Source: Rhodospirillaceae bacterium | GTDB lineage: Bacteria > Pseudomonadota > Alphaproteobacteria > Dongiales > Dongiaceae | Assembly (NCBI GenBank): GCA_016794165.1 | Contig: JAEUKV010000279.1 | Location: 1 to 48,457, forward strand | DNA length: 48,457 bases | Reading direction: 5' to 3' | In this document: piece by piece, positions 38,893-43,352 of the stretch | Numbering within the stretch: the stretch's first letter is position 1 | Layout: every line of letters starts with the position of its first letter | The notes under the pieces: model-generated | Told to the model about the DNA's origin: nothing | Seen by the model: only the letters and a program-made list of their open reading frames with translations | The model's database searches: none | Program-made: the position numbers and the translations under genes

Positions 38893-40173
38893 TCAGGCGG
38901 CGTGCCGCTTGCCTTCCTTCCAGTCATACCAGCGCATCATCCAGGGCACGAACCAGTTGTTGCCGCCATAGAGCGGCATGGTCGGGAAGGGTTGGTCGAC
39001 GAAGACCGATGCGACCGACCCCGGCTTGAGGATTCGCTGCGCCAGAAGGCGACCGAAATGCGAGCCCATCGGCAAGCCGGCGAAGCAGTAACCGGCGGCG
39101 TAGTGAATGCCGTCATGCGTGCCCATATGCGGCAGCAGGTCGAAGGTGGCGGCACAGCGACCGGTCCAGCTATGGCTGAGACCGACATCTTTGAGATCTG
39201 GGAAAACGGCCCGCAATTCTCCCAGCAGGCGCTGCCCCATCACCTGCTGGTCGCTGCGTTCCCCGGTTTTGCCGCAATAGAGAATTCGGCTGCCATCTGG
39301 CGAGCGGCGAATGGCGTCGATGTTCATGTAGGAATCGATATAGGTGCGGTCCCGGGGCAGCAACTGATCGATGAGACTGGACGGCAGCGGCTCGGTTGCC
39401 ACCTGCCACGCGTCGAAGGGAATGAGGCGCCGCTGCAGCCAGGGCAGCAACCCGTCGGTATAACCGTTGGTGGCAAGGATCACCTCACGCGCCTGGCAGC
39501 TGCCGCGCGCGGTGTCGACCTGGAAGCCGGTCTCATTGCGGGCAACACCGCTCACGCGGGTATTGGGCAGCAGCAGCACGCCGAGACCTTGCGCCGCCCT
39601 TACCAGCCCCTGGTGATAGCGCCCGGGATGGATCGAGGCGAGATCCGGCAGGATCACACCACCCAGATAGCGCGCACTGCCGATTTCAGAGGATAAAGCC
39701 TGCTTGTCAAGAATCTCGAATGGCGCGCCGAGATGCTCGTGGCGCAGTTCGTACTCGCGCTTGACGTCCTCGAACTGCGCCGGCGTTTCTGCCAGCACCA
39801 GCCGGCCATGGACCCGGAAATCGCAATCGATCGCGTATTCCGCGACCGTGTCGCCGACCGCGCGGAACGCCGCCTGCATTTCCCGATAGGTAGCGATGGC
39901 ATGCGGCAGCCCCTTGGCGCTCAGCAGATCGCCGAAGGAATATTTGAGCGTGCGGCCGACGAAGCCGGAATTGCGGCTGGAGGCGCCGGCACCGATCGCG
40001 TCGCTGTCGAACACGGCCACCGAACGACCCGCCTCGGCGAGTTTCAACGCGGCGATGAGGCCGGTATAGCCGGAACCAACCACGGCGACGTCGGTCAACT
40101 GTGGCACATCGGCCGCGGCCAGGTCCGGGCGTGGGGCAGCCTCCCACCAATAGGGATCGGTCTTGAAGGTCAT
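38893..40173 (-). CDS. FAD-dependent amine/amino-acid oxidoreductase (DadA/PuuB-like)
   Basis: The 426-residue flavoprotein is in the DAO family, near gamma-glutamylputrescine oxidase and D-amino-acid dehydrogenase. It starts MTFKTDPYWWEAAPRPDLAA, typical of the PuuB/OrdL group. The dinucleotide motif is VAVVGSGYTGLIAALKLAEA, and the C-terminal part has WTGRCAATFDLLPHMGTHDG and YAAGYCFAGLPMGSHFGRLL. The longer open frame upstream overlaps the next gene and lacks homology. The dehydrogenase gene ends eight bases before the start, so they form an operon with a shared catabolic role, perhaps oxidation of an amine or methylated amino acid. Substrate cannot be set from sequence. Confidence 0.88.
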   Translation of the reverse strand: MTFKTDPYWWEAAPRPDLAAADVPQLTDVAVVGSGYTGLIAALKLAEAGRSVAVFDSDAIGAGASSRNSGFVGRTLKYSFGDLLSAKGLPHAIATYREMQAAFRAVGDTVAEYAIDCDFRVHGRLVLAETPAQFEDVKREYELRHEHLGAPFEILDKQALSSEIGSARYLGGVILPDLASIHPGRYHQGLVRAAQGLGVLLLPNTRVSGVARNETGFQVDTARGSCQAREVILATNGYTDGLLPWLQRRLIPFDAWQVATEPLPSSLIDQLLPRDRTYIDSYMNIDAIRRSPDGSRILYCGKTGERSDQQVMGQRLLGELRAVFPDLKDVGLSHSWTGRCAATFDLLPHMGTHDGIHYAAGYCFAGLPMGSHFGRLLAQRILKPGSVASVFVDQPFPTMPLYGGNNWFVPWMMRWYDWKEGKRHAA

Positions 40174-40181
40174 CGCTTTGC

Positions 40182-41108
40182 CTATTTCCTGCCGGCGCGG
40201 TCGGCCTTCAGCCAGCGGAAGAGTTCCGCCATGCGTTGCGCACGCAGCGCGGCAGCGTCGCGCTGCGACCAATCATAGATCCCCGGCAGTTCCCCACCCG
40301 CCTTGAGGCGCATCGCTACCTGTTCCGGCGCCTGGGGTGCCGTGGAAAGATCGGGAATGAGCGAGTTGCCGAAGCTCACCATGGTGGCAAGGCCGCCGAT
40401 ATCCGCGGATTCGATCGGCCCGGTGATGCCGACGCGACGCCCGAACGAGGCCTTTACCACCGCGTCGATCGCCTCGGCGGACGCGATGCCGTCGGCCCAC
40501 AGCGCCCAGGCCTCGCGCAGCAGCGCGAATTGGAGTCGGTTGCCAATGAAGCCCTTCACTTCCTTCTCGATCACCACCGGTTCCTTGCCGGTACCGCGGA
40601 TGATGGCGACGGTGCGCGCCAGCACCTCCGGCGCGCAATGCGGCCCGCCGCAGATCTCGACCAGGGGAATGAGCTGTGGCGGATACCAGAAATGGGTGGC
40701 GATCACCCGCTCGCGGCGCCGGACATTGGCAATGAGCGCGCTGGCCGGCTGCCCGCTGGAGGAACCGAGGATCGCCTCCGGTCGGCAGATCCGATCGAGT
40801 TCACCGAAAACCTCGAGCTTCAGCGGCAGGTCCTCCGTCACCGCCTCGATCACGAGATCGGCGCCGGCGGCATCGGAAAGCTCCGTACTGAGCACTACCC
40901 GGCCAGCAGCGGCGTCCGCCTCGGCGTGCGACAGCAGCCCTTCGCCGACGAAATCTGCGAGGCTGGCGCGCATCTTCTGCATCGCCCCGTCGAGGCTTGT
41001 CCGGCTGCGGCCGATCATTGTCACCGGATGCCCGGCGCTGGCGAAGACCTGGGCCACGCCGTGGCCGATGATGCCGTTGCCGATGACGGCAATGCGTTCC
41101 TGTCCCAT
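40182..41108 (-). CDS. 3-hydroxyacyl-CoA dehydrogenase family protein
   Basis: This 308-residue NAD-dependent enzyme has a Rossmann domain with IAVIGNGIIGHGVAQVFASA, then IEAVTEDLPLKLEVFGELD, SSSGQPAS and ATHFWYPPQLIPLVEICGG. The catalytic His is in THFWYPP. The C-terminal helical domain includes EKEVKGFIGNRLQFALLREA. It resembles L-carnitine dehydrogenase and other short hydroxyacyl-CoA dehydrogenases acting on 3-hydroxy acids. There is no enoyl-CoA hydratase part. The gene is first in a pair with the FAD oxidoreductase. Its ribosome binding site, GGAGG at 41119-41115, is buried in a perfect hairpin. Confidence 0.88.
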   Translation of the reverse strand: MGQERIAVIGNGIIGHGVAQVFASAGHPVTMIGRSRTSLDGAMQKMRASLADFVGEGLLSHAEADAAAGRVVLSTELSDAAGADLVIEAVTEDLPLKLEVFGELDRICRPEAILGSSSGQPASALIANVRRRERVIATHFWYPPQLIPLVEICGGPHCAPEVLARTVAIIRGTGKEPVVIEKEVKGFIGNRLQFALLREAWALWADGIASAEAIDAVVKASFGRRVGITGPIESADIGGLATMVSFGNSLIPDLSTAPQAPEQVAMRLKAGGELPGIYDWSQRDAAALRAQRMAELFRWLKADRAGRK

Positions 41109-41114
41109 CCCCCA

Positions 41115-41144
41115 CCTCCGACGCCTTGATTGTGGCGTCGGAGG
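41115..41144 (-). promoter_or_regulatory. Perfect 11-bp hairpin that hides the ribosome binding site
   Basis: On the minus strand, CCTCCGACGCC and GGCGTCGGAGG pair without mismatch around ACAATCAA. The last five bases of the second arm, GGAGG, form the Shine-Dalgarno of the dehydrogenase, with six bases to its ATG at 41108. The structure would block translation unless melted or remodelled, so it may be a cis-regulatory element; alternatively it could be a terminator for the chemoreceptor gene, which ends 57 bases upstream. No T-run follows it. Confidence 0.7.
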
Positions 41145-41201
41145 CTAGGACAGGTACCGCATCCGGGTCGAGGGAAATCTTGCCACCGGTACCGACCGGC
41201 G

Positions 41202-43352
41202 TCAGCTCGCCCGCACCTGGGCGATGAAGGATTCCACTTCCTTGTTGAGCGAGCGAGCCTGCTCGGCCATCAGTTCAGCGGCGTTGAGAACGCCGGCCGC
41301 GGTATCGCGCGCGGAACGCACCGCGTCGTCGACGCCGTTGATGTTCTGGCGCACCGACTGCGTGCCACCGGAGGCCTGCTGGGCGTTGCTGGAAATCTCC
41401 CGCGTCGCCGCCGACTGCTCCTCGACCGCGGCGGCGATCGAGCTCGAGATCTCGTCGATGCGCTCGATCGTGCTGGTTACTGTCGCCATCGCCTTGGCGA
41501 CACTACCGGTGGATTCCTGAATCGCGTGGATTTCCACCGAGATATTCTCCGTGGCCTTGGTGGTCTGGCTGGCCAGGGCCTTCACTTCGTTGGCGACCAC
41601 GGCGAAGCCCTTGCCGGCCTCACCGGCCCGCGCCGCTTCGATGGTGGCGTTGAGGGCAAGAAGATTGGTCTGTTCGGCGATGGCCGTGATCAACTTGACC
41701 ACCTCGCCGATGCGATCGGACACTACGACCAGATTTTTCATGGTCTCGTTGGCATTGCCGATTTCGCCCACCGCCGACCTGGCGACTTCCGACGAACTCG
41801 CCACCTGGCGGCTGATCTCGCTGATCGAGGCGGAAAGCTGTTCGGCCGCCGCCGCCACCGCATCCACGCTGGCCGAGGCATTGTCCGTGGCGCCCGAGGC
41901 TTCACCGATCCGCTGCGTGGTGCCTTCCGCCACCTCGGACATCGACTGCGCGTCGTTCTGCAGCTTCTGCGCGGAGCGGGTTACGCTCTCGACCACGCCC
42001 TTGACCGAGCGCTCGAAGTCGTCGGCCAGGGCTTGCATGGTCTCGCGTTTCTCGGTTTCAGCGCGTTTGGCCGCGGCCTTCTGCTCCGCCTCGAGGCGCA
42101 GCTTTTCCTGCTGGCCCTGCTTCAGCACTTCGATCGAGCGGGCGAGCGCCCCGATCTCGTCGCCGCGCTCCACGCCCCTGACCTCAGCTGAGAAATTCCC
42201 CTGCGCCACGTCGGAGGTCACGGCGGCCAGGGCCACGATCGGCTTGGCGATGCGGTTGCCGACCCAGGCGAATACCAGCGCGCCGAGCAGCAGGACGAGG
42301 GCGATGATGGCGCCAATGGTCATGATCAGTGCATTGGCCTTGGCCAGCACGGTCGCCACCGGCACCTTGACCACCAGGGTCCAGATCTCGCTCGGCCCGA
42401 CGAACCCGATCGGCATGAAGACGTAATAGCTGCCGCTGGCGGCATCGACCTTGAGCCAGGGCGCACTCGACTTGCTCGCGAGATATTCGTCATAGAGTGC
42501 CTTGAGGGGGGATTCGACGCCGTAATCCCTGGTCTTCGTCTCCTCCGCGCCATCGGCATTCTTCTCGGTATAGGTTTCCACGGCGATGGTTTCTCCCAGG
42601 CGCGCTGCATCCGGATGCGCGGCCCAGATGCCGTTGTCGCTCAGCAGCAACACCTCGCCGGTTTCCATCGGCTTGATCTGTGCCAGATCCTCGGTGAGTT
42701 TGGTCATCTTCATGTCGACCGTGGCGATGCCGAAGGCGGTGTCGCCATCCATCATCGGCACGCTGACCGTCGACATCAGAATCGGGACCCCGTCGATCGG
42801 ATAGACATAGGGCGGCGTGAGCGTGGTCCGCTTGTTCGCCAGCGGGACCGAATACCAGCCCTCAATGCCGGCCTCGATGGTCATCACCAGCGGCTCGATC
42901 GCAACACCCTCGGCTGTGTTGTAGTAATAGGGCACGAAGCGGCCATCGGCGTCCTGCTCCGGCAGCACGCCGGCGAAGGCGGCATCGCTGTTGTCGTAGC
43001 CGTTGGTCTCGAAGGCGACGGTGGTGCCGGCGTAATCCGGCTTGCTGCCGATGATCGGCACGACCAGATCCTTGATCTGGGAGCGCGGCATCGCTGATTC
43101 CTTGGCGCCTTCCATGGCCCGGCCGATGGTCTCGGCGATGTCGATGGCTGGCTGGATGGCGCCGGTGACCTGGCGCGCCGTGCCTTCGGCAATGGCGCGC
43201 AGATTGTCGGCAGCATCCGCCTGGGCCTGTTGATAGGCGGTCCATCCGGCAATGCCGCCGGCGCTGCCGATGCCGACGATCAGGACGAAAATGCCCGATA
43301 GCAGGACCCGCGCGCGCAGCCCCAAACGGCCGGAAGTGGATGATTTTGACAT
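41202..43352 (-). CDS. Methyl-accepting chemotaxis protein with a dCache-like sensor
   Basis: This 716-residue receptor has an N-terminal membrane helix (about 13-35) and a large periplasmic domain (about 40-335) with dCache-like features, such as [40 protein letters not shown], and FGIATVDM. A second helix (about 341-366), a HAMP linker ([20 protein letters not shown]), and the signalling hairpin complete it. The tip sequence is [20 protein letters not shown] then [17 protein letters not shown] small periplasmic ligand such as an amino acid or organic acid is likely. There is no CheB/CheR pentapeptide at the end. The next genes on the strand encode a dehydrogenase and an amine oxidase, so it may sense their substrate; this is speculation. 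Confidence 0.93.

Follow-up and report, generated by a model that had tools for sequence, protein, structure and literature searches.

The window considered here, a stretch of 48,457 nucleotides, carries on its minus strand a gene for a 308-aa protein resembling 3-hydroxyacyl-CoA dehydrogenases (40182-41108; Pfam 3HCDH_N, 5.6e-52, and 3HCDH, 2.2e-12), which reached no cut-off in a search of the NCBIfam equivalogs. Directly 3' of it lies a gene for an FAD-dependent oxidoreductase of the DAO family (38893-40173, minus strand), probably the second gene of the same operon, whose start was set at MTFKTDPYWWEAAP from comparison with relatives. Upstream, also on the minus strand, is a chemoreceptor gene (41202-43352) encoding PDC/Cache, HAMP and MCP signal domains, a putative source of read-through transcription. 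Orthologues of the dehydrogenase were found in six of the seven Dongia genomes compared (G000, to which the window belongs, to G006); the named ones, at 79-82% identity, come from Dongia mobilis, two Dongia MAGs and a groundwater MAG. The seventh genome, G004, has no close orthologue, its best match having 34% identity.

In G000, G002, G003 and G006, about 70-93 nt separate the end of the chemoreceptor gene from the ATG of the dehydrogenase gene, which has the same orientation. A 305-codon lipoprotein-like gene lies between the two in G001, and in G005 it is the end of a different, unrelated gene that is found upstream. In the G003 contig C11 (L004/L035), an in-frame TAG occurs in the chemoreceptor reading frame a little ahead of its normal end, and the frame is divided into shorter ones; this gene looks broken in the MAG, or else the assembly contains errors.

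The short region before the dehydrogenase gene is occupied by a hairpin at 41144-41115 of the minus strand. Its 5' arm, CCTCCGACGCC (41134-41144), is complementary to the Shine-Dalgarno (SD) region, its loop is the 8-nt ACAATCAA (41126-41133), and its 3' arm is GGCGTCGGAGG (41115-41125). Read 5' to 3', the leader runs TCGACC-CGGATGCGGTACCTGTCC-TAGCCTCCGACGCC-ACAATCAA-GGCGTCGGAGG-TGGGGG-ATG. The initial annotation had described a perfect stem of 11 bp with an eight-base loop, whose last five bases are the GGAGG of the ribosome binding site, and re-reading of the sequence matches this exactly: the SD (41115-41119) forms the end of the 3' arm and is followed, after the 6 nt TGGGGG, by the ATG at 41108. 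One G.U pair can be added at the base of the stem. The region 41180-41080 folds at -52.1 kcal/mol (z -4.4), and none of 200 shuffled sequences was equally stable. In this fold an outer helix, CCUGUCCUA/UGGGACAGG, additionally closes around the dehydrogenase AUG; an outer helix encloses the AUG in the leaders of several of the Dongia species.

The hairpin sequence occurs once in the 3.74-Mb G000 genome, and within the window it is the sole perfect stem of at least 11 bp, as well as the sole perfect stem of at least 8 bp lying over an SD, ATG and ORF. In 1.64 Mb of Dongia DNA, 2390 SD-plus-start sites belong to ORFs of 150 aa or longer, and among these the hairpin ties for the longest stem (12, with G.U allowed). 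A scan of the first 848 kb of the genus DNA located perfect stems of at least 8 bp over the SD of an ATG-initiated ORF of 100 codons or more only at the dehydrogenase gene and at its G006 orthologue.

Every one of the six Dongia genomes with the gene has a stem at the equivalent place. It is strong in five species, with arms CCTCCGACGCC/GGCGTCGGAGG in G000, CCTCCAGCCC/GGGTTGGAGG in G002, CCTCCAGCCCGA/TCGGGCTGGAGG in G003, CCTCCTGCAC/GTGCAGGAGG in G006 and CCTCCTGC/GCAGGAGG in G001, where the lower stem is kept and the upper stem broken; that of G005 is imperfect and has an internal loop. Pair counts refer to the five species other than G005, which was described by its own fold. Across these five alignable rows, 98.2% of the cells are paired, versus 35-46% when the arms are slid by 1-3 columns, and the covariation score is 0.38, versus 0-0.02 for slid arms and 0.16 for shuffled ones. 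The comparison of relatives for compensatory changes, suggested when the stem was first noticed, found three pairs changed on both sides, one of them present as A-U, U-A and G-C, although with six species known, in about three clades, the independent compensations are a handful and not dozens. Both CCTCC and GGAGG are conserved, while the distance between them varies from 20 to 24 nt. A covariance model built from the five leaders gives one strong match per genome, always at the dehydrogenase gene. Weaker matches (E 0.03-0.16) lie at G006:C1:1391418-1391466, G003:C88:8762-8813 and G006:C1:2034432-2034478. In relatives outside Dongia (47-65% identity), the leader folds show no comparable SD-covering hairpin. 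Given its conservation together with its compensation, the dehydrogenase hairpin is, judged from these alignments, beyond chance, and it is very probable that a selected RNA structure sequesters the SD of this gene.

The proposal that this structure can repress translation is upheld to the extent that a conserved and compensated sequestration of the SD makes a cis-acting RNA structure the best reading; the regulatory classes proposed with it fared less well. An RNA thermometer is rejected because the stem is too stable: in G000 the stem region folds at -27.2 kcal/mol at 37 C, -23.5 at 45 C and still -17.1 at 60 C, a temperature at which the stem is strongly folded in five of the six species. 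As for an attenuator or a known riboswitch or leader family, Rfam returned only chance microRNA matches far below gathering score. A dispersed palindrome of the REP type is rejected on the uniqueness of the hairpin in G000 and on the single strong model match per genome, at the dehydrogenase only. A five-codon frame, ATG CGG TAC CTG TCC TAG (41145-41162, minus strand), ends at the base of the stem; a frame ending at this TAG exists only in G000, G002 and G003, being absent from G001, G005 and G006, and a leader peptide was rejected on this distribution (three of six species).

Beyond what the initial annotation had noticed, the six-species alignment contains two invariant blocks in an otherwise variable upstream leader, CTCGACC and CCTAGCCT. 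The first includes a predicted -35, TCGACC (41166-41171), and the second a predicted -10, TAGCCT (41142-41147). With its final four bases, GCCT, this -10 reaches into the 5' side of the hairpin and makes up the base of that arm. The two hexamers are 17-18 nt apart in the six species (TCGACC-N18-TAGCCT in the window), and the spacer proper has no invariant column. From the position of the -10, transcription is predicted to start 6-9 nt further on, at 41136-41133, close to the upper end of the 5' arm or at the first base of the loop. This start precedes 41119 and splits the hairpin, and the compensated pairs are located 3, 4 and 6 nt after the -10.

The upstream sequences of 49 Dongia tRNA genes served as a reference for promoters of the genus. 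They mostly follow the pattern TTGACN-N17-cTANNNN, including TCGACA and cTAGCTT forms; the -35 is TCGACA at tRNA-Lys, and TTGACN or TTGCNN at most others. Examples are TTGACG-N17-acTAGCTT (Thr), TTGACA-N17-gcTAAACA (Val) and TCGACA-N17-gcTATACC (Lys). Because the score used to choose these examples favours patterns of this kind, a count of spacings is the more independent check: in 1.64 Mb, the distance from TTGAC to CTA peaks at 17 nt, with 21 sites versus about 10 at neighbouring in-phase spacings. By its sequence, the invariant pair before the dehydrogenase gene fits this tRNA-type promoter. The predicted -10, TAGCCT, is a weak match to TATAAT, and on the minus strand a generic promoter and terminator scan gave no promoter at the hairpin. 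When the leaders of protein genes were analysed by anchored base profiles and EM promoter learning, the output was too noisy, because the crude gene caller had left few true intergenic stretches.

Together, these features suggest how the hairpin might work. The dehydrogenase gene would have its own sigma-70-type promoter, TCGACC-N18-TAGCCT, of which the end of the -10 plus the next bases would form the 5' arm of a stem whose 3' arm holds the SD. An RNA made from this promoter would start at about 41136-41133 and would retain no more than the final three bases of the 5' arm; lacking most of the anti-SD, it would have a free SD and be translatable. An RNA coming from the upstream gene would carry both arms and fold into the stable stem, and ribosomes would be kept off the dehydrogenase gene. 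In G002, G003 and G006, direct reading leaves just 8 nt between the stop codon of the chemoreceptor gene and the -35, so that there is no space for an intrinsic terminator and read-through would be hard to avoid unless Rho acts.

Modelled folding is consistent with this scheme. In five species, opening the stretch from the SD through the AUG costs 20-25 kcal/mol in the modelled read-through RNA, versus 1-7.5 kcal/mol in the RNA from the predicted start. For G005 the modelled gain is small (8.8 versus about 5-6 kcal/mol). The probability that the SD is unpaired in the read-through RNA is 0.00 in the five species and 0.47 in G005. For the SD alone, the costs in G000 are 5.8 kcal/mol in the read-through RNA versus 2.3-3.6 from the predicted start, a small difference that is due to alternative pairings; the large gap appears only when the SD through the AUG is opened. 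With its predicted start, presumed read-through and modelled block of translation, the hairpin is on balance best regarded as a probable translational insulator against read-through transcription.

A second gene presents the same arrangement. In G002, a gene named from its sequence as prolyl iminopeptidase-like has an 11-bp stem covering the SD in its leader (L235, G002:C22:116353-117291). All five Dongia orthologues, of at least 87% identity and including that of G000 (L237, G000:C186:815-1750; the others are L236, L238 and L239), carry CTTGCCC-N17-CTAATCCTG in their leaders, and in the five species the stem extends from within the -10 to the SD, AGGA, which forms the end of its 3' arm. Between species, pair 6 changes from A-U to U-A and pair 7 from A-U via C.U to C-G; in G000 and G001 the stem has one C.U mismatch. 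No such hairpin was seen in the iminopeptidase leaders of other Dongiaceae (L247, L249, L250 and L251). Read from sequence, a hairpin that is embedded in a predicted promoter and covers the SD is present at two unrelated chromosomal genes, and is conserved with compensatory changes at each.

A scan of 2.44 Mb, with large parts of the G001, G002, G005 and G006 genomes outside it, looked for the composite in which the 5' arm has a promoter at its base and the 3' arm holds the SD. At scores of at least 20 it returned the leaders of four dehydrogenase orthologues and of two iminopeptidase orthologues, together with a 72-codon GTG frame, a doubtful match that looks spurious; reversed sequences used as a control gave no composite at this score. 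Below 20, other matches and controls were alike (9 versus 6). The rules of the scan were set after both cases were known, so it speaks to the rarity of the composite and is not an independent discovery. Contig C1 of G006 also contains a multi-copy intergenic palindromic repeat, CCCCTCACCCCAACCCTCTCCCCGC..GCGGGGCGAGGG, that mimics SD-covering stems (copies L252-L291, e.g. near 193825-193930, 397770, 447696, 648236-648323 and 745344).

Several other explanations have to be weighed against an insulator. The one that survives best makes the hairpin a repressive leader at the 5' end of the dehydrogenase's own mRNA, which would be transcribed from a promoter further upstream, the hairpin being opened by a protein, a small RNA or a translating ribosome. 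The conserved, compensated sequestration of the SD would suit such a leader, as would the AUG lying inside the outer helix in several species. It is nevertheless unlikely, in that the sole conserved promoter-like pair sets the start within the hairpin, that neither a conserved alternative pairing partner nor an aptamer was seen and no Rfam match reached gathering score, and that the short upstream frame ending at the TAG is limited to three genomes.

Distinctly less likely is that the stem has no function and is a quasi-palindrome whose perfection is maintained by template-switch mutation within a short intergenic stretch. Template switching is able to produce changes on both sides of a stem without selection on the RNA, and few species are available here. 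Against it, in six species the stem holds the same position with respect to promoter and SD, the arrangement recurs independently at the second gene in five species, and nothing else with a credible gene scores as high in the 2.44 Mb. Slightly less probable again is that a short hairpin at the 5' end of the primary transcript protects the mRNA, in the manner of ompA, the CCTCC/GGAGG match then arising from separate constraints on promoter and SD. A start at 41138 would indeed place a 5-bp stem, ACGCC/GGCGT, at the extreme 5' end and leave the SD free, but the compensated pairs lie mostly 5' of the expected start, and G001 keeps the lower stem while its upper stem is broken.

An element acting as DNA, with the inverted repeat serving as a repressor operator that overlaps the promoter, would also account for a palindrome over the predicted -10 and start, a typical repressor site. 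This is very unlikely: an operator would keep its sequence and spacing, whereas the half-sites vary between species yet stay self-complementary and the distance between CCTCC and GGAGG is not constant, and the strong model match occurs at one place per genome only. The least probable reading is a terminator or 3'-end stabiliser of the chemoreceptor mRNA, as the initial annotation had also considered and as the closely preceding end of that gene, with no other terminator visible between in G000, G002, G003 and G006, might suggest; the stem is followed by UGGGGGAUGGG and has no U-tract, on the minus strand the scan found no terminator at the hairpin, the dehydrogenase SD itself provides the 3' arm, and the hairpin remains in front of the dehydrogenase gene when another gene lies upstream, as in G001 and, in weaker form, in G005.

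The closest known relatives of a translational insulator of this kind come from phage T4, in which genes e (lysozyme), soc, 49 and I-TevI have their SD and/or AUG in a stable stem of longer transcripts initiated upstream (PMC3014915). The dehydrogenase SD of Dongia resembles the gene e type in that it also lies in a stable stem in the modelled read-through RNA. The two differ in that the T4 transcripts separate early from late phage expression by means of a phage late promoter, whereas the Dongia case, known here from sequence and models, concerns a metabolic gene of the chromosome whose predicted promoter is of the housekeeping type. In a limited search of the open literature, no account of a T4-like design was found for chromosomal metabolic genes with such promoters. 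For the transposases of IS10 and IS50, read-through RNA is thought to fold and hide the SD, which RNA from the internal promoter does not. This likeness is a lead and not a test, and no mobile element was recognised among the Dongia genes examined. RNA thermometers that sequester the SD likewise hold it in a helix, the Dongia stem being perfect and GC-rich.

An insulator at this locus would amount to a chromosomal use of the phage T4 trick, in which a promoter placed in a hairpin arm lets the choice of start site decide whether the message can be translated. Read-through would yield a silent dehydrogenase mRNA, making transcript abundance a misleading measure of expression, and adjacent genes on the same strand would be controlled separately without a terminator. 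Any genome could also be searched for the anatomical mark of such an arrangement, an anti-SD arm whose first bases belong to a -10. As a tentative generalization, somewhat short of an even chance, tandem genes without terminators in Dongia, and perhaps in compact genomes more widely, may be insulated at the level of translation, with a -10 and its flank (TANNCCT-like, complementary to the AGG of the SD) acting both as a promoter element and as an anti-SD, so that the position of the transcription start would decide translatability.
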